Below are positions 4,443-33,235 of a stretch of 64,000 nt of DNA, piece by piece (the stretch's first letter is position 1; each line of letters opens with the position of its first letter). Source of the stretch: Bacteroidota bacterium (lineage in GTDB: Bacteria; Bacteroidota; Bacteroidia; Chitinophagales; Chitinophagaceae); the NCBI GenBank assembly GCA_016868475.1, contig VGGU01000007.1, forward strand, positions 1-64,000. Direction: 5' to 3'. The translations under genes and the position numbers were made by a program. Below the pieces are notes generated by a model that did not search any database, was not told the DNA's origin, and worked only from the letters and a program-made list of their open reading frames with translations.

Positions 4443-4609
4443 ATATAAACAAAAGCAAACTTTAGTTGTTTTCCCGTCAAGGTCAAAACTAATAAAAGCC
4501 GTTTTTTACATACTTGATGTTGGTCAGCCTTTGTGCTGATTCCTGTCAAGAAATTTTCTCTTACAAAAAACTAAGCTGCTGCGGCCATTGATTCCTATTT
4601 TTGTTCTTC

Positions 4610-6169
4610 ATGAGACCTACTACCGTTAAAACAATTTCTCTGGTGGCCATACCGGTGGTTGCCATTTCTTTTTTACTTGCCTGGTTGTTGAAAGACAATA
4701 AGGTGATGATGACAGGGCTTACACTTCTTATTGTACTTACAAGTTTTATCCCAGGCACACGTTCAACCTTGCTGGCAGGGATTGCAACCATGGTATTAAT
4801 TACTCTATGGAGCGCACTTTTTCCTCCTGAACAATTTGACCTGATCCGAGAACTTTTGGTCCAACTCTACATGTTATCATTGGCCGCATTCACCATGATT
4901 ATGGTATTCTACTACAAGAGAGTGCAAGAAAATTACAATATTGAAAAAGCGCACATGACCTGTCTTTTTGAAAATGCCACAGAAGGTATTTTGCTCACCA
5001 ATCGAAAAGGCGTGATAGTCATGGCCAATAGAGCTGCCGAAGAGATGTTTGATTACTCCGCCGGCGAGTTGGACGGTCTTTCCATTGAAAATCTAATTCC
5101 TCAAAGATACCAACACAATCACTCAAGCCATAGAGAAGGATTCTATCATCAACCCAACAATAGGTATATGGGGAAGGGTCGAGACCTTTTTGCTCGGAAA
5201 AAAGACCAAAGCGAGTTTCCTGTGGAGATCAGCCTCTCTTCCTATAATCAGAATGACGAAACCTTTGTGATTGCATTTATTGTAGATATTACTTCCCGAA
5301 AAGAAGCAGAAAACAAGTTAGCCTCACAGCGAGAAGACTTGGAGAAGGCAAGTCAGGATATGCGCGTACTCAATACTCAATTGGAGGAAAAAGTAGAAGG
5401 CCGAACAGTGGTTTTACAAGAAGCTTTAGAAAAACTCGAGATCTCACAGAAGGAACTTAGCACTTCGCTTGACAAAGAAAGACAATTGAACGAGATCAAA
5501 AGCCGGTTTGTTTCAATGGCTTCTCATGAATTCAGGACACCTCTTAGTACCATTTTATCTTCGGCAACTCTTATTGCTAAATTTCCAGAAATTGACGATC
5601 AACCTAAAAGGGAAAAACATGTTGGCCGCATCAAGGACTCTGTAAAGCACTTGAATGAACTACTGGAAGATTTTCTCTCCCTTGGAAAACTGGAAGAAGG
5701 AAAAGTTAGTATTAGTGCCATTGAATTTTCTGTGCCGGAGTTTTTTGACGATATCGTGGATGAAGTAAAACCTCAATTAAAGAAAGATCAAAAGATTGAG
5801 TACAGCTACGCCAGCCTTACCAACTTTGTCACAGATAAGCGTATGCTGAAAAACATTTTGCTGAATATACTTTCCAATGGAATCAAATTTTCTGGAGAAG
5901 GCACGGTGATCTCATTGGAAGCCTGCTTGGAAGATTACCAACTAAAAATTATTGTCAAAGACCAAGGTATTGGAATCCCTGAAGAAGACCAGAAACATCT
6001 GTTCGCCACTTTTTTTAGAGCTGCCAATGTCAGCAATACTCAAGGCACCGGGTTAGGTCTGGCTATAGTTAAACGATACGTAAATCTCTTGAAAGGAGAG
6101 ATAAGTTTACAAAGTGTATTAGAATTAGGCACTACCATTACCATGAAATTACCCCAGCTTCAAGCTTAG
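4610..6169 (+). CDS. Membrane-bound PAS-domain sensor histidine kinase
   Basis: The start is taken at the ATG at 4610, three codons inside the ORF-track start. Four or so hydrophobic segments occupy roughly residues 8-100. A PAS domain follows (about 115-235, with LFENATEGILLTNRKG and EFPVEISLS), then a coiled coil (about 235-295), a HisKA box with H306 in MASHEFRTPLS, and an ATPase domain with NILSNGIKFS, DQGIGIP and GTGLGLAIVKR. No haem- or cluster-binding residues are evident in the PAS region. The gene lies between the sulfide and cbb3 clusters and ends with a 4-bp convergent overlap with the SafE-type gene. The CRP-type response regulator at 14983 is the only receiver protein in the window, so it is a plausible partner; that pairing is inference. 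Confidence 0.88.
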   Translation: MRPTTVKTISLVAIPVVAISFLLAWLLKDNKVMMTGLTLLIVLTSFIPGTRSTLLAGIATMVLITLWSALFPPEQFDLIRELLVQLYMLSLAAFTMIMVFYYKRVQENYNIEKAHMTCLFENATEGILLTNRKGVIVMANRAAEEMFDYSAGELDGLSIENLIPQRYQHNHSSHREGFYHQPNNRYMGKGRDLFARKKDQSEFPVEISLSSYNQNDETFVIAFIVDITSRKEAENKLASQREDLEKASQDMRVLNTQLEEKVEGRTVVLQEALEKLEISQKELSTSLDKERQLNEIKSRFVSMASHEFRTPLSTILSSATLIAKFPEIDDQPKREKHVGRIKDSVKHLNELLEDFLSLGKLEEGKVSISAIEFSVPEFFDDIVDEVKPQLKKDQKIEYSYASLTNFVTDKRMLKNILLNILSNGIKFSGEGTVISLEACLEDYQLKIIVKDQGIGIPEEDQKHLFATFFRAANVSNTQGTGLGLAIVKRYVNLLKGEISLQSVLELGTTITMKLPQLQA

Positions 6170-6885
6170 GCAGGATGGCAATTTACAGCATCGGAAGGCA
6201 GTTCCGGAAGAACGGGACTTAGGTAGGGAATCCCTAAATTTAATCCACGCAGAATTAGTAAGATCCCCATGCCCGCTACAAAATAAGGGACCATTTTTTG
6301 TAAGGATAATCGTAGAGCGGGTTTTATAAGATGTCCGCTAAAACTAACTAACAACATCGAAGGAAGGGTTCCAACCCCAAAGGCCGCCATAAAGCCAACA
6401 CTGTCTTCAATTTTTCCAATAGAAAAGGTACTGGCCATTGCTATATAGACTAGTCCGCAGGGTAGCCATGCATTGGCCATACCCAAAATAAAAAAATGAT
6501 GTACTCTTTTGGCTGCCATTAATCGCTTGGAAATAAATTGTTGGATGCCTGTAAAAAAACGGGCCAGCAATGGCCATTTTAGCGGGTAAGACTTTTTATT
6601 GTATAACAGGGCAGCAAGTATAATCAGTATCCCCATTCCAATGGAAAGTCCTTGTTGGAATCGACCAATTTGTAGCGGTCTACCAGCCAGTCCAATCAAT
6701 AGTCCTAAAAATGCATAATTGATTACTCTGCCAATTTGATAAGAAGCTATCAACACATTTTTTTTGACAATCGATTGAACCTGATGCATAGGTAATGCTA
6801 AATTCAGGGGCCCACACATGCCTATGCAGTGAAAGCTGCCAGCAAGGCCCAGCATTAATCCCCCCAATAACAGCACTGTATTCAT
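6166..6885 (-). CDS. SafE/TauE-type membrane protein of the cbb3 cluster
   Basis: This 239-residue polytopic protein has about six hydrophobic segments and the N-terminal motif GSFHCIGMCGPLNLALP, typical of the UreH/SafE-type domain found beside cbb3 genes in Bacteroidota. The two Cys residues of HCIGMCGP look like a metal site. A role in copper delivery or oxidase assembly is plausible from context but not proven; despite the family name there is no reason to call it a sulfite exporter. It is the last gene of the cco run, overlapping ccoH by 1 bp, and its stop overlaps the convergent kinase stop. Confidence 0.75.
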   Translation of the reverse strand: MNTVLLLGGLMLGLAGSFHCIGMCGPLNLALPMHQVQSIVKKNVLIASYQIGRVINYAFLGLLIGLAGRPLQIGRFQQGLSIGMGILIILAALLYNKKSYPLKWPLLARFFTGIQQFISKRLMAAKRVHHFFILGMANAWLPCGLVYIAMASTFSIGKIEDSVGFMAAFGVGTLPSMLLVSFSGHLIKPALRLSLQKMVPYFVAGMGILLILRGLNLGIPYLSPVLPELPSDAVNCHPA

Positions 6886-7322
6886 TAATAAACTACAATG
6901 TCTTTTTCCGCATAATAATTTTTCTCAGACTGAGTCCAGGTGATCTTCCCTTTGTATGTACCAGGCAATATGGAGTCTTTGGAAAAAAATTGTTGCCCTT
7001 TATCGTCAGTAGCCAACAAAAATCTTCGATCTTTTCTTGAATCATTGGCGCAATAAAAAAATATCTCCCCGGTAGCTTTGGCTAAATGCATTTCTGATGG
7101 CAATTCTAGAACAATTCCCCCTGAAACAGGAAACAGCTTTACTTCCGCACTTAGCGTTGCAGCAGCGGCTTTTCCGTCAATGACTTGTTGGTAACGAAGC
7201 TCTTGTTTATAATAATCCTTTTCAACCAGTTCAAAATCAGTGTTAAACGCTTGATAGACCAAAAAAGCCATACCTCCAGCAAATAGTATAAAGGCCAATA
7301 TCAGTTTATTTCCCCAGTTCAT
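6885..7322 (-). CDS. ccoH: FixH/CcoH family cbb3 oxidase assembly protein
   Basis: This 145-residue protein has one N-terminal membrane helix (LILAFILFAGGMAFLVYQAF) followed by VEKDYYKQELRYQQ, the hallmark of FixH/CcoH proteins, and an extracytoplasmic beta-rich domain. CcoH takes part in late assembly of cbb3 oxidase. It sits 8 bp after ccoG and overlaps the SafE-type gene, in the standard order G-H. Confidence 0.88.
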   Translation of the reverse strand: MNWGNKLILAFILFAGGMAFLVYQAFNTDFELVEKDYYKQELRYQQVIDGKAAAATLSAEVKLFPVSGGIVLELPSEMHLAKATGEIFFYCANDSRKDRRFLLATDDKGQQFFSKDSILPGTYKGKITWTQSEKNYYAEKDIVVY

Positions 7323-7330
7323 TACTTAAC

Positions 7331-8743
7331 TTATTCTCCTTTGGTAAATGGTCCTGTGAAATTAGTCTTTATGGTGGTAATTTTTTCTTTTCCCGAATAG
7401 AGGCCAACTTTTAATTTAACTGTTCGTTGACTTAATGCTTTCTTAGAGATAGTGATAAAGAATGAACCTGCTGCTTGATCTTCCCGTTTAAGGTGAATAA
7501 AATTATTGCCGATCATGGATACTCTACCAGAATGCTCAAACTCGCCTTCTAGCTTCAGCGTTACATCCTTATCCTTCATGGTTTTATTAATGATCTTAAT
7601 CTCATATAGATTACTGAGACTATCCACCCCAACTTCCTGATATAATTGCCCCCTGGTTCTGACAATGGTGCCATCTATAGCTGCTCGTGTAGCTAACAAC
7701 AGGGCAAGTAGTCCTGATAATACTATCAATATGAAGGTGTAAAACTTCATACGTGCAGTGTAGCGAAGGGGCTTTTGTAGTGAAATTCCATTTTCAGAAT
7801 CATAGCGAACAAGACCCCGAGGTTTGTTGATAGACTCCATGATCTGATCACAGGCGTCAATGCAAGCCGTGCACCCCACACACTCCATTTGTAGCCCATT
7901 TCTAATATCAATACCAGTAGGACAAACCCTTACGCAATTGAAGCAATCAATGCAATCACCAAAGCTTTCACTCCCCTCCCCCTTTTTTAATTTTCCACGG
8001 GGTTCCCCACGTTGGTAATCATAGGCAACAATCATGGAATTGCGGTCAAGTAATACACTTTGTAAACGACCATAGGGGCATACCACTGTGCAGGCTTGCT
8101 CCCGAAAGAAAGCATAAACTAAATAAAATACAGACGAAAAAACAATTAGCGATAAAAAACCTACCCAGTGCTGCGAAACTGGCTCAGTGATGATCTGCCA
8201 AAGTTTGTCAACACCAATGATATAGGCCAAAAAGTAATTGGCAATAATAAAAGCTACTCCAAAAAAAACTGTGTGCTTCCCTGCTTTTTTACTGATCTTT
8301 TCGGTATTCCAAGACATTTTAGCCAACACTCTTTGCTTTGACGCGTCTCCTTCAATCAGGTATTCTATTTTACGAAAGACCATTTCCATGAAAATGGTCT
8401 GTGGGCATATCCATCCGCAAAACAAGCGTCCAAAAGCGGCAGTAAATAAAACTATAATGATGATGAAGGTCACCATCGTCAGGCCAAAGATGAAAAAATC
8501 TTGAGGCCAGAAAATCTTTCCGAAGATGATGAACTTAGCTTCGGGTATATTGAATAAAAATAATGGCCGGTCCTTGTACTTGATAAAAGGCAGGCTTAGA
8601 AAAACCAAAAAAAAGACTCTACTAGCCCAAGTTCGAGCTGAGCTAAATCTGCCTTTAGGTTTCTGGGCAAAAATCCACTTTCTTTTTCCTTCTGGGTCTA
8701 CTGTGGCAATTCGGTCCCTGAATGATTCATCATTGGGCCGCAT
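7331..8743 (-). CDS. ccoG: CcoG/FixG cbb3 oxidase accessory ferredoxin-type protein
   Basis: This 470-residue membrane protein has several helices, including CGWICPQTIFMEMVFRK. Two four-Cys ferredoxin motifs follow: CIDCFNCVRVCPTGIDIR and CVGCTACIDACDQI. A C-terminal Ig-like domain of FixG type ends the protein. CcoG is a cupric reductase that helps supply copper to CcoN. The N-terminal DRIATVDPEGKRKWIFAQKPKG is a family signature. The gene overlaps ccoP by 14 bp, indicating translational coupling. Confidence 0.93.
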   Translation of the reverse strand: MRPNDESFRDRIATVDPEGKRKWIFAQKPKGRFSSARTWASRVFFLVFLSLPFIKYKDRPLFLFNIPEAKFIIFGKIFWPQDFFIFGLTMVTFIIIIVLFTAAFGRLFCGWICPQTIFMEMVFRKIEYLIEGDASKQRVLAKMSWNTEKISKKAGKHTVFFGVAFIIANYFLAYIIGVDKLWQIITEPVSQHWVGFLSLIVFSSVFYLVYAFFREQACTVVCPYGRLQSVLLDRNSMIVAYDYQRGEPRGKLKKGEGSESFGDCIDCFNCVRVCPTGIDIRNGLQMECVGCTACIDACDQIMESINKPRGLVRYDSENGISLQKPLRYTARMKFYTFILIVLSGLLALLLATRAAIDGTIVRTRGQLYQEVGVDSLSNLYEIKIINKTMKDKDVTLKLEGEFEHSGRVSMIGNNFIHLKREDQAAGSFFITISKKALSQRTVKLKVGLYSGKEKITTIKTNFTGPFTKGE

Positions 8744-9830
8744 CTTCTACATATAAATTACCCTGTGGTTCTTTAGGCTCTTTAGGTTTGGTGCCTTTTA
8801 GTGACTTGATATAACTGGACACCTGCGCCATCTCTTTGGCAGATAATTCATCTTTCCAGCTTTTCATTCCATTATTGGCCCCGTATTTAACCACTTTGAA
8901 AATTGATTTGATATCTCCGCTGTAAATCCAATAATCGTCTACTAAGTTTGGGCCAACAGCATTTCCACCTCCATCCTCAGCATGGCAGGTAGCACATTTA
9001 CCGGGGGTGGTGAATATTTTTTGACCTGCGCTCAAATCTTCTGCACTAGTTAACAGTTCCACGGTAGTTTCATCAACACTTTCTCCTTTTGAAGCAAGGA
9101 AAGCTTTCACATCTGCATCCCCTTTAGCAACGGCCATTTCAAATTCCTCTTTACTGGAAGGGGCAGAATGAACAACGTGATAGCGATACAGATAAATAGC
9201 TGCAAAAATAATGCAGATATAGAACCCATATAACCACCATGGGGGCAGCCGATTGTCTAATTCACGGATGCCATCGTACTCGTGTCCGAGATCTAGATCT
9301 TTTTCTTCATCAATAGGTCTGAACAAATTGATGCGATCCCACCAGGAAAGTTGTTTTGCTTTTTTCTCATTGACCACTTCACTATCGGCTTCTGCAACAA
9401 ATTTTGACTTCTCTTTATTAACCAAAAATTTAATATTGATTAGTAATGCGATGATGATAAAGAGTTCTAAAAATAAAACTGTGGCAATGAGATAAAAGGT
9501 GGAAACACTCATTCCCCCAATCAGTTTAGGGGCTGCCACTGTGGTTGCTTCTTGCGCCCATAAGCTCCCCTGGCTTAATAAAGTGGCTCCAATTAACAGC
9601 AATAAGGATTTTGCATTGATCTTACTCTTTTTGTATTTCAGTTCAGCAGCACCTATCAAAATATTTGCCAATACACCAATGATAACCAATAAAAGTGCCA
9701 TTAACGCCAATAGAGTAATGGCCAAGGGGTTGGACAAAATAGAGGAGCCGGAAGGTCCTGCTGCCCATACAGGCGTAGTGGATATAAGCGCAAAGGTTAT
9801 TGTTGCTGTTTTAAGAGTACTTATTTGCAT
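8730..9830 (-). CDS. ccoP: cbb3 oxidase subunit CcoP, single-haem cytochrome c
   Basis: CcoP carries electrons to the cbb3 catalytic subunit. This 366-residue form has three hydrophobic segments: a signal-like N-terminus, a helix around residue 110-135, and a third after LPPWWLYGFYICIIF. The CcoP N-terminal domain signature HEYDGIRELDNRLPPWW comes next, then one class I cytochrome c domain with CATCH near residue 275 and a distal Met in GMKSW. Proteobacterial CcoP has two haems; one haem is usual in Bacteroidota. It lies between ccoQ and ccoG. Confidence 0.92.
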   Translation of the reverse strand: MQISTLKTATITFALISTTPVWAAGPSGSSILSNPLAITLLALMALLLVIIGVLANILIGAAELKYKKSKINAKSLLLLIGATLLSQGSLWAQEATTVAAPKLIGGMSVSTFYLIATVLFLELFIIIALLINIKFLVNKEKSKFVAEADSEVVNEKKAKQLSWWDRINLFRPIDEEKDLDLGHEYDGIRELDNRLPPWWLYGFYICIIFAAIYLYRYHVVHSAPSSKEEFEMAVAKGDADVKAFLASKGESVDETTVELLTSAEDLSAGQKIFTTPGKCATCHAEDGGGNAVGPNLVDDYWIYSGDIKSIFKVVKYGANNGMKSWKDELSAKEMAQVSSYIKSLKGTKPKEPKEPQGNLYVEDAAQ

Positions 9831-10037: not shown

Positions 10038-12176
10038 TTATTGATTTACTGCAGCTTTCTGGGGCTCAGTGGTGATATCTCTACCTAGTTTTTGCAGGTA
10101 GGCGATCAAAGCAATTATTTCCAGATCAGCGTCCGTATTAATTTTTTCGTTCTTTAAATTGTTTACAATGGAATCGGCCTGACGTATCAGGTCTGCATTG
10201 GCTTGCTTGTCATATCCTTCGGGATAAGGAACTCCCAGCGTTTGCATTGCCCTGATTTTAGCAGCAGTAGAACCAGTATCTAACCGTTGATCAAATAACC
10301 AACCATAGGCAGGCATGAGTGAACCCGGCGACATAGATCGAGGTTCATACATATGATTGTAATGCCAAGAATCTGGGCGCTTCAATTTGGGAGATCCTTC
10401 GCGTGCCAAGTCGGGTCCGGAGCGCTTACTTCCCCATTGAAAAGGATGATCATACACAAACTCACCAGCCTTTGAATACTCACCATATCGGGCAACCTCG
10501 TCTCTAAAAGGACGGACCATTTGAGAGTGACAGGTATAACATCCCTCTCTGATATAGATATCCCTACCCTGCAATTCAAGCGGTGTATAAGGCTTGACGG
10601 CAGCAATGGTGGGTATATTTGATTTTACCAAGAATGTGGGAATAATCTGTACCAGGCCGCCAATAGAAACCAAAATCAAACTTAGCACCAGCATCATTAC
10701 TGGTTTTCTCTCGATTACTCTATGCCAATATTCTTTTTTATTTGATTCTATTTTGGCCAAGGGAGCTGCTTCCGCTGCTTCATCGCTTATAAAACTTCCT
10801 TTAGCAATGGTCTTAAATAAATTATACGTCATCATCAAAGCACCGGTCAAATACAAAGTACCCCCTATGCTTCGGGCGATGTACATGGGTATAATATTGG
10901 TTACCGTCTGTAAAAAGTCGTACTTGATCTGTCCTTCCGGAGTGAATTGTTTCCACATGGAAGCTTGTTCAAAACCAGCCCAATAAAGTGGAACTGCATA
11001 TAAAATAATACCGATTGTGCCTAACCAGAAGTGGTTGGTAGCTAATTTCTTTGAATATAGCTCCGTATTCCACATTTTGGGAATCAAGAAGTAAAGCACG
11101 GCAAAAGCCATAAACCCGTTCCATCCTAAGCCACCTATATGCACGTGAGCAATGGTCCAGTCACTGAAGTGAGAAATAGCATTTACATTTTTAAGACTTA
11201 ATAAGGGCCCCTCAAATGTGCTCATACCATAGCAAGTGATGGCCACAACCATGAACTTCAGTACCGGTTCTTCTCTTACTTTATCCCAAGCACCTCGCAA
11301 GGTGAACAACCCGTTAAGCATACCTCCCCAGCTTGGGGCAATCAACATAATGGAAAAAACAGTGCCTAAGGATTGAGCCCAATCAGGCAATGCAGTGTAT
11401 AATAAATGGTGAGGGCCTGCCCAAATGTAAATGAAGATAAGTGCCCAGAAGTGAACAATAGAAAGTCGGTAAGAGTACACCGGACGATTGGCAGCCTTTG
11501 GCAGAAAATAATACATGATACCCAGAATAGGTGTGGTTAGAAAGAATGCCACGGCATTATGTCCATACCACCATTGTACCAGCGCATCTTGTACTCCTGC
11601 ATACCAGCTGTAACTTTTGAATAGTGAAACAGGGATCTCGAAAGAGTTTACTATATGTAGCATGGCTACAGTTACCCAAGTGGCAATATAAAACCAGATA
11701 GCTACATAAAGCTGACGCTCTCTTCTTGTTAAAATAGTAGCAATCATGTTTATGCCAAATACCACCCACACCAGGGCAATGGCAATATCAATGGGCCATT
11801 CAAGTTCCGCATACTCTTTTCCGGTAGTGAACCCCAGTAGAAGGGTCACTGCTGCAGCCGCTATAATGGCTTGCCATCCCCAGAAATGGAGCCAGCTTAA
11901 TTTGTCACTGAACATGCGGGCTTTACACAAACGCTGCAATGAGTAATAAACTCCCATGAACATGGAATTTCCCACAAATGCAAAAATGATGGCATTGGTG
12001 TGCAAGGGGCGCATACGGCCAAAAGTGGTATACGAAAGATTTAGGGAACTACCAGGATAGTACATTTGGATAGCTGCCCAAAGACCGGCAATCATACCAA
12101 CAATGCCAAAAACTACCGTGGCAATTCCAAAAGCCTTTACAATTTTGTTGTCGTAATAAAATCTCTCTACTTGCAT
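10038..12176 (-). CDS. ccoNO: Fused cbb3 cytochrome oxidase subunits CcoN-CcoO
   Basis: This protein joins the haem-copper catalytic subunit CcoN and the monohaem cytochrome CcoO, a fusion common in Bacteroidota. CcoN covers about residues 1-470 with about twelve helices. Its His ligands are visible in LHTNAIIFAF, WWYGHNAVAF, AGPHHLLYTA and HVHIGGLGWNG. After a linker and another helix (MLVLSLILVSIGGLVQI) comes the CcoO domain with CYTCHSQMVRPF and GSLMPAYGWL. The enzyme reduces O2 with high affinity. The length (712) fits the fusion. ccoS is 20 bp upstream and ccoQ 15 bp downstream. Confidence 0.96.
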   Translation of the reverse strand: MQVERFYYDNKIVKAFGIATVVFGIVGMIAGLWAAIQMYYPGSSLNLSYTTFGRMRPLHTNAIIFAFVGNSMFMGVYYSLQRLCKARMFSDKLSWLHFWGWQAIIAAAAVTLLLGFTTGKEYAELEWPIDIAIALVWVVFGINMIATILTRRERQLYVAIWFYIATWVTVAMLHIVNSFEIPVSLFKSYSWYAGVQDALVQWWYGHNAVAFFLTTPILGIMYYFLPKAANRPVYSYRLSIVHFWALIFIYIWAGPHHLLYTALPDWAQSLGTVFSIMLIAPSWGGMLNGLFTLRGAWDKVREEPVLKFMVVAITCYGMSTFEGPLLSLKNVNAISHFSDWTIAHVHIGGLGWNGFMAFAVLYFLIPKMWNTELYSKKLATNHFWLGTIGIILYAVPLYWAGFEQASMWKQFTPEGQIKYDFLQTVTNIIPMYIARSIGGTLYLTGALMMTYNLFKTIAKGSFISDEAAEAAPLAKIESNKKEYWHRVIERKPVMMLVLSLILVSIGGLVQIIPTFLVKSNIPTIAAVKPYTPLELQGRDIYIREGCYTCHSQMVRPFRDEVARYGEYSKAGEFVYDHPFQWGSKRSGPDLAREGSPKLKRPDSWHYNHMYEPRSMSPGSLMPAYGWLFDQRLDTGSTAAKIRAMQTLGVPYPEGYDKQANADLIRQADSIVNNLKNEKINTDADLEIIALIAYLQKLGRDITTEPQKAAVNQ

Positions 12177-12361: not shown

Positions 12362-12435
12362 TCAATAAAATGATTATACTAAATAAAGGTATTTAATAGC
12401 CTTATTTGGGGAGGGTAATGAAAGTCAGGAAAAAA

Positions 12436-12451
12436 AGTGATTTTAATCAAG
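12436..12451 (-). promoter_or_regulatory. CRP/FNR-like palindrome upstream of ccoS/ccoNO
   Basis: The gap between the ATPase gene and ccoS holds AGTGATTTTAATCAAG. Its core, TGAT-N4-ATCA (12438-12449), closely matches the FNR consensus TTGAT-N4-ATCAA apart from the first base. It is centred 82 bp upstream of the ccoS start. I see no clean -7 box at the spacing found in the sulfide promoters. The site suggests that ccoS-NOQPGH has its own redox-responsive promoter rather than depending only on the ccoI transcript. Confidence 0.5.
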
Positions 12452-12458
12452 TAATTTC

Positions 12459-14864
12459 TTAAAGGCGTAGCTGACGTGCCGCCAAATTACTGCTGCCAAA
12501 AGTGAGCAGTAAAATACTGATGGAACTGCTGGGCATTAAAATAGCGGCAATCAGTGGCGATAAATTGCCTTGAACTGCAAAATATAAACCTATGACATTG
12601 TAAACAATAGACAGGACGAAGCTTGCCATAACTATGCCCCGGTTCTTTTTACAGAGCTGGATAAACTGGTTGAGTTTAACTAATTTTTTTGCCTCAATAA
12701 TAGCATCACTAGAGGGGGTAAAGTTGTTGGATTGCTCACTTAAAGCTACCCCCACATCGGCCTGTTTGAGTGCTCCCGCATCATTAAGCCCATCTCCGAT
12801 CATCATCACCTTATCCCCCTTTTGTTGTAACGATTTGATATAAAGCAGCTTGTCTTCTGGTTGTTGATTGAACAGTAGGGTTGAAGAATGGTCTGTTAAC
12901 TGTTCCAAGGTTTCTCTTTCTGTGGGATTATCTCCTGAAAGAACAGAAATTTTATACTCCGACATTAATAGTTTTATCAGCCCGGGTATTTCATTGCGAT
13001 ATTGATTGCCAAACTTGAAAAATCCTAAATAAACATTTTCAATCTCTACATGCACCTGAGTACCTGCTGCAATGGAGTCTTGCGTTGATTGCTTTACAAA
13101 CGCTATTGAGCCCATCCGGATACGTTTTCCCTGAACAATTCCTTCTATACCCGCACCAACTTTCTCTAATTTATTCTCCACCTGAAGGTAATTATCAGGC
13201 CTAAGCCAATGTACTATGGCTTTGCTTAAAGGATGGGTGGATTGGTTGGCCAATGAAGAGATAAGCTGCTGCTCCTCCGTTGAAAGATCTTTTCCGATAA
13301 ATGCAACTTCTTGCTCTCCAGGTGCCGTTAAGGTGCCCGTTTTATCGAACACCAAATGATTGACCCCGGCAATAGACTCGATTGTTTCGGCATTGCGTAA
13401 AAAGAACTGATTGCGGGCCAAAATTGTTAGGATATTACCATTGGTAAAGGTGTTTGATAATAACAACGCACAGGGACAGGCAATAATAAAAATGGAAGTG
13501 ACGGCTGGCCAAAGTTTGGAGAGGTCCTCGCGCCACCAATAGGCTGCGGTGATAGCGGCAATTAAAAATACGATATAGGTGAAATAACGACTGAGTGCAT
13601 GAACAAAGGAATACTTTTTTGGAGTAGCTTTTTCCTGAAACTCCTCTCTGTTCCACAACTTGGTGAGGTAACTCTGCGCCACCTCTTTCACCACCAATAA
13701 TTCAATATTCCCTTCGGTTTGTTTTCCGCCGGCATACACAATTTCCCCCATCTCCTTCAACACCGGCATCGATTCTCCTGTAACAAAACTATAATCAATA
13801 AATGCTTTACCCTTTACTAAAATTCCATCGGCAGGAATTAACTCTTCCTGATGTATTAAAAGTGTATCATTAACACGTATATCAGGTAGTGCCGTGGGAA
13901 CTTGCTTCCCCTCTTTTAGCACCGCAACCGCCACTGGGAAATAGGAAGTATAATCCCTTTCAAACGAAAGCTGACGATAGGTCTTGTCTTGCAATATTCG
14001 TCCGGCCAGCATAAAAAAAACAATTCCGGTCATGGAATCAAAATAGCCCCCTCCTGTACCTTCCAACACCTCTATTACACTTCGTATAAATGTGATGATT
14101 ATCGCAAGGGCAATAGGGGCATCTATATTGAGATATTTGTGTTTTAAACTTTTCCAAGAAGCCTTATAAAAAGGCAGTGCTGAATAAAGAAATACCGGAA
14201 TGGCCAGGAACAGATTAGCCCACCGAAAAAGTTGAAGCATCCCCTCTTCACTGGTGTCTATGCCCAGGTATTCGGGAAAACTCATAAGCATGATATTGCC
14301 AAAGCAAAAACCGGCTACGCCAATTTGATATACCATTTGTTGGTCAAGGCCAGGTCTTTTGTTTCGAAGATCGCTTAAGCTGATATAAGGTTCGTATCCA
14401 ATGCCAGCCAAGGTTTCTGCTACTTTTCTCAAGCTGGTGGCTTTTTTTATCAGCACTATTTCTACCTCCTTTCGGGTAAAATTGACTTTGCTGGAAACCA
14501 CACCTGGGTTAATTCTATATAGATTTTCAAGTAGATAGAGGCAGGAACTGCAATGCATCTGCGGTAAGTAAAACGTAACATGTAACTGCTCCTCATTTTG
14601 AAAACTAATAAGCTGTTGGCTGATTTTCGTGTCGTCTAAAAAAGCAAACTTGTCTTCGCGAATCGGGATCTTAAGCGTAATTCCCGGATTTTGATTCAAA
14701 TCGTAATAATCACATAACTCGTGTTTGGACACTATTTGAAAAACCATCTTGCAACCTTCGCAACAAAATAATTTATTGTCCAGTTTAATTCTATCGTTTG
14801 CACAAGGCTCCCCACAGTGATAGCAGCTAGCAGTTGTATGGGTATAGTGAAAGTTTGAAATCAT
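12459..14864 (-). CDS. ccoI: CcoI-type copper P1B ATPase
   Basis: This heavy-metal P-type ATPase exports copper for cbb3 assembly. Its N-terminus has a Cys-rich module (CYHCGEPC, CCEGC), then an HMA-like domain with MHCSSC. Later come the metal-site CPC in IACPCALLL, the phosphorylated DKTGTLT, TGES and GDGLNDAGAL. These features are typical of CcoI/CtpA proteins. I prefer the ATG at 14864 (MISNFHYTHTT) because the 11-residue extension of the ORF-track start at 14897 is atypical, and the later start leaves more room for the divergent promoter region. It is divergent from the CRP-type regulator. Confidence 0.92.
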   Translation of the reverse strand: MISNFHYTHTTASCYHCGEPCANDRIKLDNKLFCCEGCKMVFQIVSKHELCDYYDLNQNPGITLKIPIREDKFAFLDDTKISQQLISFQNEEQLHVTFYLPQMHCSSCLYLLENLYRINPGVVSSKVNFTRKEVEIVLIKKATSLRKVAETLAGIGYEPYISLSDLRNKRPGLDQQMVYQIGVAGFCFGNIMLMSFPEYLGIDTSEEGMLQLFRWANLFLAIPVFLYSALPFYKASWKSLKHKYLNIDAPIALAIIITFIRSVIEVLEGTGGGYFDSMTGIVFFMLAGRILQDKTYRQLSFERDYTSYFPVAVAVLKEGKQVPTALPDIRVNDTLLIHQEELIPADGILVKGKAFIDYSFVTGESMPVLKEMGEIVYAGGKQTEGNIELLVVKEVAQSYLTKLWNREEFQEKATPKKYSFVHALSRYFTYIVFLIAAITAAYWWREDLSKLWPAVTSIFIIACPCALLLSNTFTNGNILTILARNQFFLRNAETIESIAGVNHLVFDKTGTLTAPGEQEVAFIGKDLSTEEQQLISSLANQSTHPLSKAIVHWLRPDNYLQVENKLEKVGAGIEGIVQGKRIRMGSIAFVKQSTQDSIAAGTQVHVEIENVYLGFFKFGNQYRNEIPGLIKLLMSEYKISVLSGDNPTERETLEQLTDHSSTLLFNQQPEDKLLYIKSLQQKGDKVMMIGDGLNDAGALKQADVGVALSEQSNNFTPSSDAIIEAKKLVKLNQFIQLCKKNRGIVMASFVLSIVYNVIGLYFAVQGNLSPLIAAILMPSSSISILLLTFGSSNLAARQLRL

Positions 14865-14923
14865 GCAAGTGACGAAAATAGGCGCCCTTATTTCCAAGCG
14901 TGATGAGCAAGTTCATAAAATAA

Positions 14924-14962
14924 GCTGATTTTTATCAAAGTGTCCGTTTTTTAGTAGTTTTG
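14924..14962 (+). promoter_or_regulatory. FNR-like palindrome and -7 box between ccoI and the CRP-type regulator
   Basis: GCTGATTTTTATCAAA (core TGAT-N4-ATCA, 14926-14937) is an FNR-type palindrome. A perfect TAnnTTTG box (TAGTTTTG, 14955-14962) follows toward the regulator, with 30.5 bp from site centre to box end, 5 bp closer than at the sulfide genes. The site is 51 bp upstream of the regulator and 67 bp upstream of the preferred ccoI start. It may control either or both, including autoregulation. Confidence 0.55.
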
Positions 14963-14982: not shown

Positions 14983-16044
14983 ATGTCGCAAAAAACAATC
15001 CTCATTATCGACGATAATGCGGACATACGAGAAAATACAGCAGAGATTCTTTCCTTGGCAGGATATAAAACAACCATGGCTGAAAATGGGAAAAAAGGCA
15101 TTGAGTTGGCCCTGACCCAAAAACCCGATCTGATTGTGTGCGATATCATGATGCCCGAGTTGGATGGATACGGGGTCTTGCACTTACTAAGAAAAAATCC
15201 TGAAACCGAAGATATTCCACTCATTTTCTTGACTGCAAAAGCAGAACGCAGTGATTTGCGCAAAGGCATGGAAATGGGAGCAGACGATTATGTAACCAAG
15301 CCATTCGAAGAGATTGAGCTTATGAATGCCATTGAGTCTCGCCTTCGCAAGTACGAAACGCTGAACAAACGATACCACCCTAATGGGAAAGGATTAAGTG
15401 AATTTTCCAATGATCTTCGGAAAAATGGGCTATTTAATTTTAATCCGGAAAAGTACAATGCAGAACTGTATGCAAAAAAGCAGGTGATTTATTCTGAGGG
15501 TAAACGATCCCGCTATCTTTATTATATTGTTCGGGGTAAGGTAAAGGGTTTTAAAACACATGATGATGGCAAGGAGTATATCACTGATCTGTATAGTGAT
15601 GGAGATTTTCTGGGTTACCCTTCATTGATTGACGAAACCAATTACATTGATACTGCTGTAGCTTTGGAAGACACAGAAATTGTACAGTTACCGCGAGAGG
15701 AGTTTCTGGAACTGATCGAGTGCAATATCCAGGTAGCCACTAAGTTTATAAGGATAGTAGCACAAAACATGAAGGAGAAGGAAGAACGATTGCTAAGCCT
15801 TGCTTATAGTTCTTTACGCAAACGAGTGGCCAAGGCGCTGGTAGATATTCATCAAAAATTCAATAACACCGATAACAATACGCGCATTGCGATCTCCCGC
15901 GAGGACATTGCTCATTATGTGGGCACCGCCACGGAGTCCTTGATAAGAACCCTAAGTGATTTTAAATCGGAGAAATTGATTGAAATCAAAGAAGGAAAGA
16001 TTATCATCATTCAGTTAGAAAAACTAAAGAACCTCTTGTATTGA
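14983..16044 (+). CDS. Response regulator fused to a CRP/FNR-type DNA-binding module
   Basis: This 353-residue protein has an N-terminal receiver domain (acidic D10/D11, phospho-acceptor D54 in CDIMMPELDGYG, K106 in VTKPF). A linker leads to a cyclic-nucleotide-binding-type beta barrel (about 150-270) and a CRP-type winged helix (about 275-345). The recognition helix contains E318 and R322 in TESLIRTL. This keeps the E-x3-R pair by which CRP and FNR read TGA half-sites. There is no N-terminal Cys set for an Fe-S cluster, so phosphorylation rather than direct oxygen sensing is the likely input. It is the only CRP/FNR protein in the window and the best candidate to bind the repeated TGA-N6-TCA palindromes. 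Its stop abuts the convergent DUF2490 stop without a gap. Confidence 0.92.
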   Translation: MSQKTILIIDDNADIRENTAEILSLAGYKTTMAENGKKGIELALTQKPDLIVCDIMMPELDGYGVLHLLRKNPETEDIPLIFLTAKAERSDLRKGMEMGADDYVTKPFEEIELMNAIESRLRKYETLNKRYHPNGKGLSEFSNDLRKNGLFNFNPEKYNAELYAKKQVIYSEGKRSRYLYYIVRGKVKGFKTHDDGKEYITDLYSDGDFLGYPSLIDETNYIDTAVALEDTEIVQLPREEFLELIECNIQVATKFIRIVAQNMKEKEERLLSLAYSSLRKRVAKALVDIHQKFNNTDNNTRIAISREDIAHYVGTATESLIRTLSDFKSEKLIEIKEGKIIIIQLEKLKNLLY

Positions 16045-26404: not shown

Positions 26405-27019
26405 TTAATTTTTCTCGGTGCTGCAAGGCGGGGCACCATTTCCCGTCAATTCATTAGTAATAAATTCCTCCAACAAATAAGATACAGTTAAAAAGAAGGG
26501 CCCTGCCTCACCTTCGCGCAAACGCTTTGCCAGCGCAAGGGCAAACTCTCCGGTATGTTCTTCTAAAAATTTCCGATAAGCATCTTTGGTTACGCTTCTG
26601 CTTTCTTCATCCGATGCAATTACGTTTTTTACCAATAGTAAGGCCAGAAACTCCAACTGATACATAATGCTGTCGGGGTTCTCGCCTGTTTTAGGTGTAA
26701 ACCCAAATGCATTGTAAAATGCATTTGCGTCAGATACGCTATTGTATTTCTGCAGCAAGTGTGTTTCACTTAATGCAACACCTCCTCTAACAAATATGTT
26801 GGTGAACGCAGACAACACTTCATCTTCATTTGCCGATTCGGCAAGGGACAATAACATATTGTTGATGCTTTCATCCGGGTACCCTACCTGGTGTAAACCC
26901 ATCGCCATCTCTTTAATATTGAACAACCGTTCCTTATCAGGGTAGGCAAAACAATTTGCAATCAGTCTATACAAATCGGCATTCATGAGCATTACATCTG
27001 TCATTTGACTTGTTTTCAT
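26405..27019 (-). CDS. TorD/NarJ-like molybdoenzyme chaperone
   Basis: This 204-residue, all-helical protein has the TorD/DmsD/NarJ pattern: LYRLIANCFAYPDKERL at the N-terminus and MYQLEFLALLLVKNVIA in the middle. Such proteins bind the apo-alpha subunit and its Tat signal and hold it until the cofactor is inserted. It is 14 bp downstream of the gamma gene, the last of the four structural and assembly genes. Confidence 0.82.
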   Translation of the reverse strand: MKTSQMTDVMLMNADLYRLIANCFAYPDKERLFNIKEMAMGLHQVGYPDESINNMLLSLAESANEDEVLSAFTNIFVRGGVALSETHLLQKYNSVSDANAFYNAFGFTPKTGENPDSIMYQLEFLALLLVKNVIASDEESRSVTKDAYRKFLEEHTGEFALALAKRLREGEAGPFFLTVSYLLEEFITNELTGNGAPPCSTEKN

Positions 27020-27033
27020 TGAGTAATTCTTTT

Positions 27034-28323
27034 CTATTTTTGAAGCAATAGATCAATCCAAGGTACAAAGTGTTTTCTTCCGCCAATATTTTGGAAACCG
27101 CCATCCCATAAGGCAAAGGCAACTTTGGTTCTGTCAGTAAACGATGCCTTGTAGTGGTTGCCTGTATTCACAGGCACTACTATACAAAGTGTCCACTTTC
27201 CTTCTTTCCATTCAGCCCAAGCTTTAGCTTGTTGCGTTTCCTGCGTAGCAAGTGTTCCGAACCCTTCAGCCACGGCTTCTTCCACTGGTTCTTTTCTTTT
27301 TATCACCGACATAGGGTTATTGGAGTAGGTGCCTGGCATGTTACCTGTGGCATGTGTTTCAACAATTAATTCAGCTCCAATATCCTGAGCGTAAATTCTT
27401 TTACTTCGGTCTAAATAGCTTTCCAGACCAGGATAAACGTCTACCCACATATTTGGGTATTTCACCTGTACATCCTGGAATCCCTTTTCACAATCTTCCT
27501 GCCAAATGGCTTTCCAATGTACAATATGCACCATTCCCCCTTTATTACCCATCATGTAGCTGGGAATATCATTAAGACTAATTGGAAATTGAACGGCAAA
27601 TTGATCGCAAAACTTAACCACATCAACTTCATTGTTTTTTGAAGAATCATTCCACTCAATGCGAAAGGCAACTTCCTTGGGAAGATAAACACTCTTTATG
27701 GTCAGTTGTTCAACTGATGGATTTTTTAGCGTAGGATAAGTTGCTTGTTGTGGAGAAACGGGTAATTTGAGCGCCTCGATGGTTGACCAAAAATCCGCAT
27801 TTAACTCTTTAGCATTTATTTTCTGTTTTGCCGGATAGCTTTTTAATGCAAATTCAGCATCAACCCAATCAATTTTTTCCTTAGCAGCTGTCGGAGAATT
27901 GGTATTGGTTTTAACTGAAGGCTTTGTTGACGTATTAGCCTCCGTTGGTTTAGGGGTTGTTTTTGCTGGAGCAATCGGAGCGCTTTTGCTCTTGATGTAA
28001 GCCAAAATGTCTTTAAGTTGAACATCGGTAAGCGTTTGATCAGGCATCGGGATTTTGTTATGTTCATTGAACAACTTTACCGCAACCGGATCGCCACTTT
28101 TAACAAGAGCTTGAGATGAGCGAATAAACTTATTTAGCCATTGTGTGGGCCTGCGTGTTGTAACATTTATCAAGTCGGGTCCTACAATTTTTCCTTTGCC
28201 AATACTGTGACAGGCTGAGCAATTTGCTTTATAAATTTTTTCCCCTGCAGCGATTTGCTGAGCAAAGCTGTTTTGCAAACACATAGTGCTAATGCAAAAT
28301 GAGATGAGCAATATTCTTTTCAT
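27034..28323 (-). CDS. Cytochrome c / ethylbenzene-dehydrogenase-type haem b fusion (gamma subunit)
   Basis: I start at the ATG at 28323 because MKRILLISFCISTMCLQNSFAQ is then a proper signal peptide; the ORF-track start adds 12 charged residues. A class I cytochrome c domain follows (CSACH, GPDL, distal Met in IPMPDQ). A Pro/Thr/Lys-rich linker (about 100-140) leads to an EB_dh-type domain with PSYMMGNKGGMVHIVHW. In EbdC-like subunits this region gives the Met ligand of haem b. The fusion would pass electrons between the beta-subunit Fe-S chain, haem b and haem c in the periplasm, so a quinol-oxidising NarI is not needed. Confidence 0.85.
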   Translation of the reverse strand: MKRILLISFCISTMCLQNSFAQQIAAGEKIYKANCSACHSIGKGKIVGPDLINVTTRRPTQWLNKFIRSSQALVKSGDPVAVKLFNEHNKIPMPDQTLTDVQLKDILAYIKSKSAPIAPAKTTPKPTEANTSTKPSVKTNTNSPTAAKEKIDWVDAEFALKSYPAKQKINAKELNADFWSTIEALKLPVSPQQATYPTLKNPSVEQLTIKSVYLPKEVAFRIEWNDSSKNNEVDVVKFCDQFAVQFPISLNDIPSYMMGNKGGMVHIVHWKAIWQEDCEKGFQDVQVKYPNMWVDVYPGLESYLDRSKRIYAQDIGAELIVETHATGNMPGTYSNNPMSVIKRKEPVEEAVAEGFGTLATQETQQAKAWAEWKEGKWTLCIVVPVNTGNHYKASFTDRTKVAFALWDGGFQNIGGRKHFVPWIDLLLQK

Positions 28324-28364
28324 AAATTGTTTTTTCAAATTTCTATTGGATTCCTTCAATTAAT

Positions 28365-29492
28365 CTATGGTGTATTGTGACGGAATGTTTGGAATTGCGC
28401 ATCCCAATGAGGCCTATTGTGAACTGGCTCTACGTAAGGCACGCGAACAATTTCATCGCCAATTTCGTTATAGCCTACTGCATGATTTTCTTCGGCCTTG
28501 TAGGAATGGATGATCCTTGGCGTATTTCCAAATAACATGAACGCCGCAAGCAATTCCTTATCATCCTTCATATTACGATATAGGGTGATGGCATCCTCCA
28601 CATTAGGCCCAAACATCTGAATCAAGAAATCTTTTGGCACATGTACCGGTGGCACATAATACACATTGGGTTGTGTTCCAAATTGCGGGTATAGGGGAAG
28701 TGCAATTTTTTTAATCCGAACAATCATATCAAACGGACTATCTCTTCGAGGTTCTTTGGCGTCTTCCATAAACCCTTGTAAACGAATTTTTCCAATACAA
28801 CTAGTAACGCATCTAGGCTGTTCACCTTGTTCAATCAATGGGTAGCAACCAATACATTTTTCAGAAACACGGGTTACCATGTTGAAAAATGTTTTTTTGT
28901 AAGGACAGGCTTTCACGCATTCTTTGTAACCACGGCAGCGCGATTGATCGATCAAAACTATTCCGTCTTCTTCTCTTTTATAGATCGCTTTACGTGGACA
29001 TGCAGCCAAGCAACCCGGATAGGAACAATGATTGCAAATGCGGGCCAAATAAAACATCCATATATCATGTATGCCATTAAAGAATGCTCCCTTCTCCATG
29101 TTGCCTAAAACTTCATCTTCACCAATATTTGGAAAAGCGTAGCTCCTTTCTTCTGGTCTCCATCCCGTTACCCTTTCTCCGGATTCACTCTCAAAAATGG
29201 TTTTACCTTTATAAACACCCCCTTTACCCCATTCTTGCTCATTGAGTTCCTTCAGGGTATTTACATCCCATTTTTGCGGGTATCCACCGTATGGTTTTGT
29301 TTCCACATTATTGAAGAAAATAGTCTCCTCACCCTTACCAGCTGCCCAAGTAGTTTTACAAGCTACTGTACAGGTTTGACAAGCAATGCATTTGTTTGTA
29401 TCAAATACATAGGTGATCTGTTTTTTAGGCTTTTTTTCTTCATAGGGATATTCCATTTCCCTATTGAGTTGCCAGTTTTTTACCTTTGCCAT
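28365..29492 (-). CDS. Iron-sulfur beta subunit of a type II DMSO-reductase-family enzyme (NarH/NxrB-like)
   Basis: This 375-residue protein carries four cluster motifs: CIACQTCTVAC, CNHCSYPGCLAACP, CRGYKECVKACPYKK and CIGCYPLIEQGEQPRCVTSC. NarH has Trp where this third motif has Tyr (CRGY), a position linked to a [3Fe-4S] cluster. The length is closer to EbdB/SerB/NxrB-like subunits than to E. coli NarH (about 510). It has no signal peptide and would be exported bound to the alpha subunit. It lies 13 bp after the alpha gene. Confidence 0.9.
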   Translation of the reverse strand: MAKVKNWQLNREMEYPYEEKKPKKQITYVFDTNKCIACQTCTVACKTTWAAGKGEETIFFNNVETKPYGGYPQKWDVNTLKELNEQEWGKGGVYKGKTIFESESGERVTGWRPEERSYAFPNIGEDEVLGNMEKGAFFNGIHDIWMFYLARICNHCSYPGCLAACPRKAIYKREEDGIVLIDQSRCRGYKECVKACPYKKTFFNMVTRVSEKCIGCYPLIEQGEQPRCVTSCIGKIRLQGFMEDAKEPRRDSPFDMIVRIKKIALPLYPQFGTQPNVYYVPPVHVPKDFLIQMFGPNVEDAITLYRNMKDDKELLAAFMLFGNTPRIIHSYKAEENHAVGYNEIGDEIVRVPYVEPVHNRPHWDAQFQTFRHNTP

Positions 29493-29505
29493 GTTCTTAT
29501 TTCAT

Positions 29506-32500
29506 TTATTTTTTAACAAAGTTTCCTTTCAAAAATTTCTTAAAGTCATCGTTCTCATAGGTAGGTCGTGTACCATTTTCAGTTCCTTCCCACAAGCCGC
29601 TTCCTCCAATGCCTCCTTTTTCTGCAAGTGATATTTTCACAAAGGCTTCACGAGGGTTGCCGGTTGCTCCATGAACATCAATTTCAAAGCCCTTTCCTAT
29701 TCCCTGACCGAAATTGTTTTTACGTACCAAAGAATCAGTAAGTAAAGTTGGTTTCAGCCAAGCTCGCGTACAACTTTGGTGCGAACCATTGCGGAAAAGT
29801 GCCTGATACCCCGTTTTATTATTCTTAGCTAACCCGTTTGCGTTTTCTTTTGCTCCGGCAACTGAACCGTATGTTGCGCCATAGGCATTGTGCCACATCC
29901 GCGTAACGCCTCTCTGAGTTCCTGGATAGAATCGAGCACGCGCCTTCAATCTTGCCAATTCGTATTCCGGACCATTTTTTCTGCCGGCTAATCCACGGAA
30001 AGGACGATCAGAAGGGTCGGCATCAATCCAAACATAATCGCCATCCTCAACGCCTAACTCGCGTGCATCTAGCGGATTGATATCCACATAGAGTTCCGTA
30101 ACAAAAGGAATGCGTTTATCCCTTCTATGCATGTCGCCAAATGGACCAAACCAAACGGCTACGATATCCGTGTCTACCGGAGTGGTATGTGCGCCGTGCC
30201 TGAACTTGGGCGTGTGGAAAATAAATTTATAATCCTTGTCCTTTAGGTGTAGCGGGTGCTTAGTGTTCTTCACCTCGCTCCATGGTTTTACAACGTTTCT
30301 CGCCTGACGCGTGTCTGTAGCAAGATCATTGATATCCACCCCGTATTTCTGCGGTTCGTCAGGCATAATGCAAGGGTGTTTTTTACCAACAATTACATTA
30401 GGCTCGTAGAATGTGGAATCGATGGGTTCGCGGAAAACAACCATATTTTCCCCGGCTTCAATAAACTCGGGCTCGTCACGATAAAACTCCAATCGTCCAG
30501 ATTTGGTATACCATTGCTTGTCCTCATTGCTCTGCTCCATACCTACAAATTTTGGCGTGGTGCGTGTCATCATCAATGCTGGAATACCTTTTTTAGCTTC
30601 AGCTTCCAATTCATTGAATTTATATCCTCTGGTACCTTGGCTGGTATTAAGAATGCGTTGCAAATAAACTTCAACCTTATTTTCAAACACAAACTTGAAC
30701 ATATCACGGAAGCGTGAGTCGCCAGTTAAATTACCAAAGGCAGACGCAATTCCTGCAATGACTTCAATGTCTCCTTTTGTATCAAAGATTCTTTTTAATG
30801 GTGTTCTGGGGAACACATATAAGAATGGATTGGTTACCGACATGGTCATGTCTGGATATTTGAATTCAGCCCAAGAATCTACCGGATAAACAATGTCTGA
30901 ATATTCGCAAGAACCTGTCCACCACCACTCCAGCACGCTAATAAATTCAATTTTTGGATACACATTTACTACGTTATCGTAGTGTCCTTTTGAATTGGCG
31001 AGCAATGAGTTTCCATTGGAAACCATGATGGACTTTGTAGGAGTAGGCATGTGCGTTTCCCCTGTCATGTTCTTATTACCCATGCGTAAAATGCGATCGC
31101 CATTGTTGAAGTAGTGCGCTGATTCATAATGCATGTACTTCTTCACTTTGGATGGTTTAGTTTCATCCAACTCCAGATTAAATGGATCTTCGGCAATATA
31201 ACCAGGTATGCCAGAGAATAAGGCACCACGGTAGTTACCGGCATATGATCCCACATTACCTCCTATCTTGCCCACGTTTCCAGTGATGCTAGCCAGGAAA
31301 AATACTGCACGATCTTTTAGATCGTTATTGAAAAACTGGTTAGGCCCCATTCCCATGGCAAATAAAGTGTTACCACTATTCGTTGCAATTTCATCTGCAA
31401 TCGCTTCAATTCCTTTTACAGGCGCCCAAGTGAGTTCTTCAATAGTTTTTGGATCAAAGTTTTCCATTACGTATTCCTTCATCAAATCAAAAACAGTACG
31501 AACTTCTACTTCCTTTCCATCTATTGTTTTTACTTTGAATCTACCCTCCAATGCCGGGTTCAGTCCTTTCTCCCGCATATACTTACCATAATCATCACGG
31601 GTAATTACAGATAGCGCATTTTTAGTTTCATCCCAGACCATAAAGTCGCCCCATTCTTTTGCCATTTCTTCATCTACAAATGGCGCCCCCTGTTCCGGAG
31701 ATTTTTTTGCTTTCTCTCCCTTCTTCAAAATCTCAATGTAATTTTTCAAATCAGGTTTCTGATAATTCAAAATCACATCAGTTGGCTTCAACATTTTCTG
31801 ACTATCCATCCGAACCAAGAAGGGCAGGTCGGTGAATTTTTTCATAAAATCAGCATCGTATTTTTTGTCGCGAATAATCACATGCGCAAATCCCAATGCC
31901 AATGCAGGTGTAACTCCAGGACGAACCACCAGCACATTATCTCCTTTATTTGCGGTTGCACTATACTCGCAGGCAATTACGGTAACCTTAGCCCCCTTCA
32001 TACGGGCTTCGGTAAGCCAGTGCGCATCGGGCATTTTAGTGGTTATCCAGTTCATACCCCAAACAATTATATGCTTTGAATGTTCGGTGCAAAAAAGGTC
32101 AAAGTCAACGGTTTGCTGACCTGTAACCATAGGATGCCCCGGCGGTAGATCGGTATGCCATGCATAACTGTCCCAAGTGCGTGCACCCTTAGAACCCTCT
32201 GGTCCTTTATTATTGATGGCATTATCTAGTAATGCTAGAGAGTTTGCCAATCGATTGATACCAAAAATGCGTGTTACACCAAGTGGAGCCATACCTCCAC
32301 GGAATTTCAGTACTTCCACTCCGTGTCCATGGGTGGCTTCGACCATTAATGGGTCATATCCTTGTGCATGTAATTTATCCTGACCTTCTTTTCCGTTATA
32401 GGTTCTGGCAATATTATCCAGCACTAATGCAGTGTACTTAAAGGTGTCTTCCCAGGTGATCTTAACAAAAGCCTCTTTGCCTCTTTGCATATACTCCTGC

Positions 32501-32988
32501 GCAATAGCCCCTGTTTTGATATCCCGAGGCATACCGGCATTTATCCATTTCAAATATCCTTCACGAATAAGTGGATATTTTGCTCTGCGGTCTCCATAAA
32601 AGCGTCTGGCCAGCGCCAAACCTTTCTGGCAGCAACGTGGTTCCCATCGGGCAGAGGTTTGGTTGCCCTGTGCATCTGTTGCTTTTCCAAAACCATAACT
32701 TGGTGCAATACGTACTACTGCTCCATTTTTTACCATTGCTTTCAACAGGCAATTGTGTGTGTCATTGGGAGCACATAAAAATGTGAACTCGTCGTCATAA
32801 GCCCACATATCACGGTATGTTTTTTCCCAACCCCTGTTTGGATATCCTCTAAGTGGATTTTCAATGTCTAAAGGATCGAAAAAGGAGAATGCTTGAGAAA
32901 ATCCGCTAAGGGGCAATGATGACAGTGCTATTGTGCCAAGCCCGCTCAACAGCCCTGATTTGATAAACTGTTTTCTTGATGATTTCAT
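29506..32988 (-). CDS. Molybdopterin catalytic subunit, NXR/pNarG-like periplasmic nitrate reductase candidate
   Basis: This 1160-residue alpha subunit begins with a Tat-like signal, [10 protein letters not shown], with Arg-Lys in place of twin Arg. The N-terminal Fe-S motif is C72-x3-D76-x3-C80, then C119/C120. E. coli NarG has His-x3-Cys-x3-Cys, and the Cys/Asp pattern recalls nitrite oxidoreductases and outward-facing archaeal nitrate reductases. D280 in HTDLPPG aligns with the Mo-ligand Asp222 of NarG (YCDLPP). [16 protein letters not shown] and [13 protein letters not shown] are also NarG/NXR-like. Nitrate is the most probable substrate; chlorate, selenate, or nitrite oxidation cannot be excluded. 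It heads a 16-gene minus-strand run with tandem FNR-like sites upstream. Confidence 0.88.
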
Positions 32989-33235
32989 GACCTGATAATT
33001 TGGTATGTTATTTATCGTTTGTAAGTACCTCTAAAAACAGTCACAAAGTTGTCTGCAAATAGGATATCAACAGATTGATTATTATCATATCAAATACTGA
33101 TTATAGTCACTTTATCCCATACAATATCCATTAGATAAACGTGGTTAACGTTCTCTCGCTTCAGTTTTAACCAGATTAGTAAGGGAAAAAGAGCCCAGAT
33201 TTAGAATTCGAGTATTCTATTTTGGGTTGTTCCAA
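32989..33235. other. 247-bp gap upstream of the molybdoenzyme operon
   Basis: This is the longest gap between genes in the window. It holds the tandem palindromes described separately. I found no convincing ORF, RNA gene or strong terminator in the rest, which is AT-rich. Its length is unusual for this compact segment and fits a regulated promoter. Confidence 0.5.
33074..33111 (-). promoter_or_regulatory. Tandem CRP/FNR-like palindromes upstream of the nitrate-reductase-like operon
   Basis: Two copies of the palindrome lie side by side: TGATTATTATCA (33076-33087) and TGATTATAGTCA (33098-33109). Their centres are 22 bp apart, about two helical turns, and 93 and 115 bp upstream of the alpha-subunit start. 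Read on the minus strand the second is AGTGACTATAATCAG, differing from the persulfide dioxygenase site at only two positions of 14. The -7 box is not clear: CAAATAGG at 33056-33063 is a partial match on the minus strand. Confidence 0.6.

Follow-up and report, generated by a model that had tools for sequence, protein, structure and literature searches.

The closest described systems are the rhizobial FixL-FixJ-FixK and hFixL-FxkR-FixK cascades, in which a heme-PAS-type kinase, a receiver and a CRP/FNR-type factor without an Fe-S cluster act through TGAT-N4-ATCA boxes on cbb3 oxidase and denitrification genes, and in which FixK binds TTGAT-N4-ATCAA at fixNOQP (PMC7888657). Similar half-sites of the TTGAT-N4-ATCAA type, together with a Glu and an Arg in the recognition helix and microaerobic or anaerobic respiration genes as targets, are found for E. 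coli FNR and FnrN, while E. coli CRP has the barrel, the long dimer helix and the HTH fold in common with the regulator described below. On the sensor side, the heme-PAS proteins DosP and FG214 (PDB 9cdr and 10jx) share the PAS fold and the position of the heme-ligand His with the kinase described below, but differ from it in their effector domains. Few descriptions exist of how Bacteroidota regulate microaerobic respiration and clade II nosZ (N2O reduction) in the absence of a classical FNR, and our search of the open-access literature retrieved no account of a receiver-CRP/FNR system. Here, we analysed a 64-kb stretch of Bacteroidota DNA (the window), which carries a response regulator with these CRP/FNR features next to a cbb3 oxidase (cco) island; its features are listed in Table 1.

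The regulator gene is a clean open reading frame, and the encoded domains all score above the Pfam cut-offs (Response_reg, 102.7 bits; cNMP_binding, 74.8; HTH_Crp_2, 57.9; Crp, 30.2), in agreement with a sequence-only reading of the locus that had proposed a receiver with D54 joined to a CRP-type domain. The receiver pocket (D10/D11, D54, T84 and K106) is conserved among the homologs, as expected of a response regulator. D54 and K106 are strongly conserved, D54 being kept in 113 of 118 aligned homologs and lost in five. Besides the barrel and the Crp-type HTH, Foldseek matches of the AlphaFold model (mean pLDDT 80.8, pTM 0.51) to CRP, FNR and FixK2 place the protein in the CRP/FNR superfamily, although the modelled arrangement of the domains is uncertain with a pTM of only 0.51. 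No PDB sequence match among those listed spans both parts; each covers the receiver alone or the CRP portion alone. The Glu and Arg of the TESLIR helix (E318 and R322) are present in 118/118 homologs, which supports the earlier suggestion of FNR-like recognition of TGA half-sites. It had also been noted that Fe-S cysteines are lacking, unlike in classical FNR. Indeed, the four [4Fe-4S] ligands are absent, the regulator having only two cysteines (53 and 247) and its homologs one or two as a rule, mostly one. Likewise, a hand alignment places Y212 and D223 at the positions of the cAMP-contacting E72 and R82 of CRP. Judged from these residues, phosphorylation is the likely input of the regulator.

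A sensor histidine kinase encoded in the same window had escaped the sequence-only reading, as had its probable heme PAS domain, the pairing of operator sites in tandem and a nosZ target elsewhere in the genome. Among 115 loci with enough upstream sequence, an ortholog of this kinase lies directly upstream of the regulator gene in 81, and all 30 of the 59 relatives that have the kinase also have the receiver-CRP protein. Because of this adjacency and co-occurrence, kinase and regulator can be predicted with high probability to be a cognate pair. The two genes adjoin in most relatives; in the closest relatives and in the window they stand on either side of the cco island. Four distant genomes among the relatives searched have a receiver-CRP protein and no such kinase.

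PDB sequence matches to the kinase PAS region are heme PAS domains (10jx, the heme PAS of FG214, 6e-17; FixL 1d06, 2e-12; DosP, 1.6e-7), these three being its best solved relatives, and the best 29 Foldseek matches are heme PAS domains as well. In an ungapped alignment, H174 falls on the proximal heme histidine of FixL. This residue is invariant in 84/84 homologs, while the residues around it vary, and the PAS model places it inside a long helix (PAS-fragment residues 59-74), as expected for a heme His. The kinase thus shows the PAS fold with a proximal His on helix F that defines FixL-type heme PAS domains, and heme binding is a strong prediction from homology. Position 194 is Arg in 51 PAS homologs, Leu in 14 and Met in 12, so that the ligand chemistry may vary among them.

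Table 1 Predicted features of the regulator locus and its target promoters in the 64-kb window
Feature	Position	Strand	Details
Receiver-CRP/FNR response regulator	14983..16044	+	353 aa; Pfam domains and homolog alignment
Receiver domain	14998..15336	+	aa 6-118, phospho-acceptor D54; Pfam, alignment
cNMP-binding-type barrel	15469..15720	+	aa 163-246, lacking the cAMP-contact residues of CRP; Pfam, alignment
HTH_Crp_2	15820..16035	+	aa 280-351, with TESLIR (aa 317-322) as recognition helix; Pfam, alignment
Cognate sensor histidine kinase (predicted)	4601..6169	+	hydrophobic N-terminus and PAS-HisKA-HATPase; likely ATG 4610
FixL-like PAS region	4928..5335	+	H174 at the position of the proximal heme His; R194 at that of FixL R220
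ccoI distal operator	14925..14938	-	TTGATAAAAATCAG
ccoI proximal operator	14903..14916	-	TGAACTTGCTCA; centre 22 bp from distal
ccoI -7-like box	14873..14880	-	TATTTTCG
ccoNO distal operator	12437..12450	-	TTGATTAAAATCAC
ccoNO proximal operator	12415..12428	-	TGACTTTCATTA
ccoNO -7-like box	12384..12391	-	TACCTTTA
nar-like operon distal operator	33097..33110	-	GTGACTATAATCAG
nar-like operon proximal operator	33075..33088	-	ATGATAATAATCAA
nar-like operon -7-like box	33044..33051	-	CAACTTTG
Tandem operator beside kinase	4514..4549	.	perfect -7-like box TAGTTTTG, 4484-4491, facing left
ccoI-type P-type ATPase	12459..14864	-	predicted target
ccoNO fusion, cbb3 oxidase	10038..12176	-	predicted target
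ccoP, fixG, fixH, DsbD_2-type gene	6166..9830	-	rest of cco island
nar-like (type II DMSO-reductase family) alpha, beta, heme and chaperone genes	26405..32988	-	predicted target

The palindromes pointed out earlier are present at 14925-14938 and 33075-33110, and they turned out to belong to a larger unit. The predicted operator is a tandem of two TGA-N6-TCA sites with centres exactly 22 bp apart, and a -7-like box starts 29.5 bp past the centre of the proximal site. When the ccoI and ccoNO promoters of relatives were aligned, a second TGA-N6-T(C/T)A site was found 22 bp away in 23/23 cases. The same alignment revealed a TAnnTTT-like box whose distance from the sites is fixed. A scan of 80 named loci (1.15 Mb) with spacers of 0 to 40 bp between two TGA-N6-TCA sites gave 95 matches for the N10 spacer, in 62/80 loci, compared to 0-6 for every other spacer. 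Relative to the proximal centre, a TAnnTTT(G/A) box occurs 46 times at +29.5 (0.15 expected) and three times at each neighbouring offset. The -7 box of a Bacteroidota promoter spans about -12 to -5; if this holds here, the predicted dimers would be centred near -41.5 (proximal) and -63.5 (distal).

The TGA-N6-TCA sites of the repeated palindrome noted earlier are real, but the tandem, and not the single palindrome, is the informative unit. When the window was scanned loosely for TTGA-N6-TCAA, matches did not exceed chance (64 matches, 55.7 expected). The strict single palindrome CTGATWWWWATCAG gave 61 matches in regulator-positive genomes, compared to 6 for a control palindrome; it was nevertheless rejected as the unit and replaced by the tandem, as many matches were intragenic and few targets recurred across genomes. 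In pattern searches, on which all genome-wide site counts are based, TGA-N6-TCA-N10-TGA-N6-TYA occurs at seven sites in the 1.74-Mb genome, four of them in this island, whereas TCA/TCA pairs at the N15 control spacing were absent from the whole genome. In the window and in relatives alike, the distal boxes of ccoI and ccoNO read TGAT-N4-ATCA, which is of the TTGAT-N4-ATCAA type of FNR and FixK anaeroboxes.

Of the seven genomic tandems, three lie ahead of ccoNO, ccoI and the nar-like operon, and a fourth ahead of a cytochrome c-nosZ operon encoding a Sec-dependent N2O reductase (contig C2, around 7899; L247). Of the remaining three, one is located beside the kinase gene, one where contig C23 ends and one within a gene. 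The regulator had been proposed as master of the respiratory island including cco, sqr and nar-like genes. A leading role is supported for the cbb3 and nar-like genes by their tandems and by co-occurrence with the regulator, but not for sqr, upstream of which window scans found neither a tandem nor a palindrome. The nar-like genes continue on the same strand into molybdenum-cofactor genes, and the two groups may share a promoter. None of the curated family cut-offs is approached by the nar-like alpha subunit, whose best score is to type II DMSO reductase (308.6 versus 984.75 bits); the heme subunit combines cytochrome c and EB_dh in one fusion. An Rfam search of the window gave no matches.

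The palindrome near the regulator gene, previously assigned to its own promoter, is actually the distal site of the tandem that serves the divergent ccoI gene, and the conserved -7-like box faces ccoI. The perfect -7 box reported for the regulator side is present (TAGTTTTG, 14955-14962), but relatives do not conserve it, and its distance is about 6 bp shorter than in the conserved promoters. Although a site exists, autoregulation of the regulator gene by activation is thus not supported, while auto-repression is possible. Most members of the genus have no conserved tandem facing the kinase-regulator operon. Autoregulation of the kinase by the tandem at 4514-4549 was rejected, as the correctly spaced box points left, away from the kinase. 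This left-pointing tandem and box (4484-4549) are followed by no clear gene, and relatives carry a small lipoprotein gene at this place; the element may be an orphan promoter or a source of antisense RNA to the small ORF 4221-4442.

The architecture of the two proteins, their pairing, the tandem geometry, its co-occurrence with the regulator and the target genes, all read from sequence, make it probable that the kinase and the receiver-FNR protein constitute a two-protein O2-responsive system, which would activate genes for low-oxygen respiration via the tandem. According to this model, the kinase would sense O2 (or NO) via heme in its PAS domain, autophosphorylate at low O2 and pass the phosphate to D54 of the regulator. 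Phosphorylation, replacing cAMP in CRP or the [4Fe-4S] cluster in FNR, would put the CRP-type dimer into its DNA-binding state. Two dimers would then bind side by side, about two helical turns apart, and from their predicted positions would switch on Bacteroidota promoters that carry a -7 box of the TAnnTTTG type, at ccoNO, ccoI and the nar-like operon, as well as cytochrome c-nosZ on another contig.

In relatives, tandem-plus-box promoters precede ccoNO (20), the cytochrome c gene of nosZ operons (8) and ccoI (5). Further predicted targets include genes for a norB-like oxidase subunit, Hsp20-like, RIC/ScdA, Rrf2 and Usp-like proteins, among others; RIC, Rrf2, cytochrome c and NosZ are family assignments, whereas Hsp20 and Usp were named only from reading the sequence. 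This regulon bears on the nature of the signal, as the same architecture and targets could serve a kinase that senses NO, CO or redox, or a receiver that works without phosphorylation, for example if the unphosphorylated regulator bound DNA and phosphorylation released it. NO and CO are further ligands of heme PAS domains; in relatives, nosZ, the norB-like gene, RIC and the Rrf2 regulator are part of the predicted regulon, and five homologs lack D54. Against this reading stand the cbb3 oxidase genes as the most frequent tandem targets, the strong conservation of D54 and K106, and the presence of two O2 sensors, FixL and DosP, among the nearest relatives of the PAS domain. We consider such a different input unlikely and retain the O2-responsive two-protein system as our model. 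In one regulator-positive genome without cbb3 genes (G026; L218), a palindrome lies 51.5 bp before a TACATTTG box, and the gene that follows is cytochrome oxidase subunit II-like, again a name taken directly from the sequence.

Presence of the tandem follows presence of the regulator. In 20 regulator-positive genomes of the genus, the 22-bp tandem was found 166 times, compared to 16 at a control spacing, whereas 11 genomes without the regulator, mostly small and reduced, had 7 and 12, respectively (tandem density per Mb, Mann-Whitney p = 5e-5). Because the regulator-negative genomes are mostly reduced, the losses of gene and sites may share a cause. These counts also weigh on a second alternative, under which the palindromes would be bound by a stand-alone CRP (contig C42, 206 aa, recognition helix SREVISR), leaving the receiver-CRP protein with another role. 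It is the sole other Crp-HTH protein found in the genome, and half-sites overlap across the CRP family. Its helix, however, retains the CRP-type Arg before the Glu, and stand-alone CRP is also encoded in regulator-negative genomes of the genus with few tandems (one in G033, 89% identical; none in G029), so that tandem counts track the receiver-CRP and not the stand-alone protein. This alternative is therefore very improbable, and we keep the receiver-CRP as the predicted binder of the tandem. That the sites are chance palindromes in an incidental gene neighbourhood fits the loose palindrome scan of the window, but is contradicted by the spacing scan and by a tandem and -7 spacing far above controls and conserved across families, and has next to no credibility. 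The regulator-negative genome G053 (L243) carries four tandems and a stand-alone CRP/FNR protein near ccoN; given these tandems without a receiver-CRP, other CRP/FNR family members may use the same operator.

Full-length regulator orthologs share 65-82% identity in about 20 of the genus genomes that were searched, and those from other families of the order reach 42-54%. A GTDB scan returned at least 588 confirmed receiver-CRP stretches. Among those listed, the best matches are mainly from Chitinophagaceae, with further records from Cyclobacteriaceae, Flammeovirgaceae, Sphingobacteriaceae and Saprospiraceae. Based on these numbers, the fusion is common and not peculiar to the source genome. Three loci (L238, L239 and L240) carry paired tandem receiver-CRP genes that have diverged (36-41% identity), in small genomes without the kinase and without ccoNO. 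On balance, we favour the broader view that this is a widespread mode of O2 control in Bacteroidota, with receiver phosphorylation as the effector of a CRP/FNR-type protein and two cooperating dimers on the 22-bp tandem (about -41.5/-63.5) that would command cbb3 oxidase and clade II N2O reduction. The tandem with its fixed -7 spacing can be scanned in any Bacteroidota genome for regulon prediction, and the cultured hosts Chitinophaga, Sediminibacterium and Segetibacter make the model directly testable.

Compared to known systems, the locus is, by its genes and residues, neither FixLJ-FixK nor FNR or CRP proper. It is not FixLJ-FixK because it lacks a separate FixJ, a receiver-LuxR HTH protein that activates fixK, and instead has its receiver fused to the CRP/FNR protein, with which the kinase pairs directly; the FixJ/FxkR step is thus absent. 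It also differs from these cascades in its strict 22-bp tandem operator, its Bacteroidota host and its Bacteroidota-type -7 box. FNR and CRP proper do not apply because their defining cofactor residues are absent. In contrast to FNR, the regulator has Ile at position 321, where FNR has Ser212, and receives its input via the receiver; in contrast to CRP, it lacks the cAMP contacts and has an added receiver. Taken together, the system likely represents a FixL-FixJ-FixK-like cascade collapsed into one kinase and one receiver-FNR protein.
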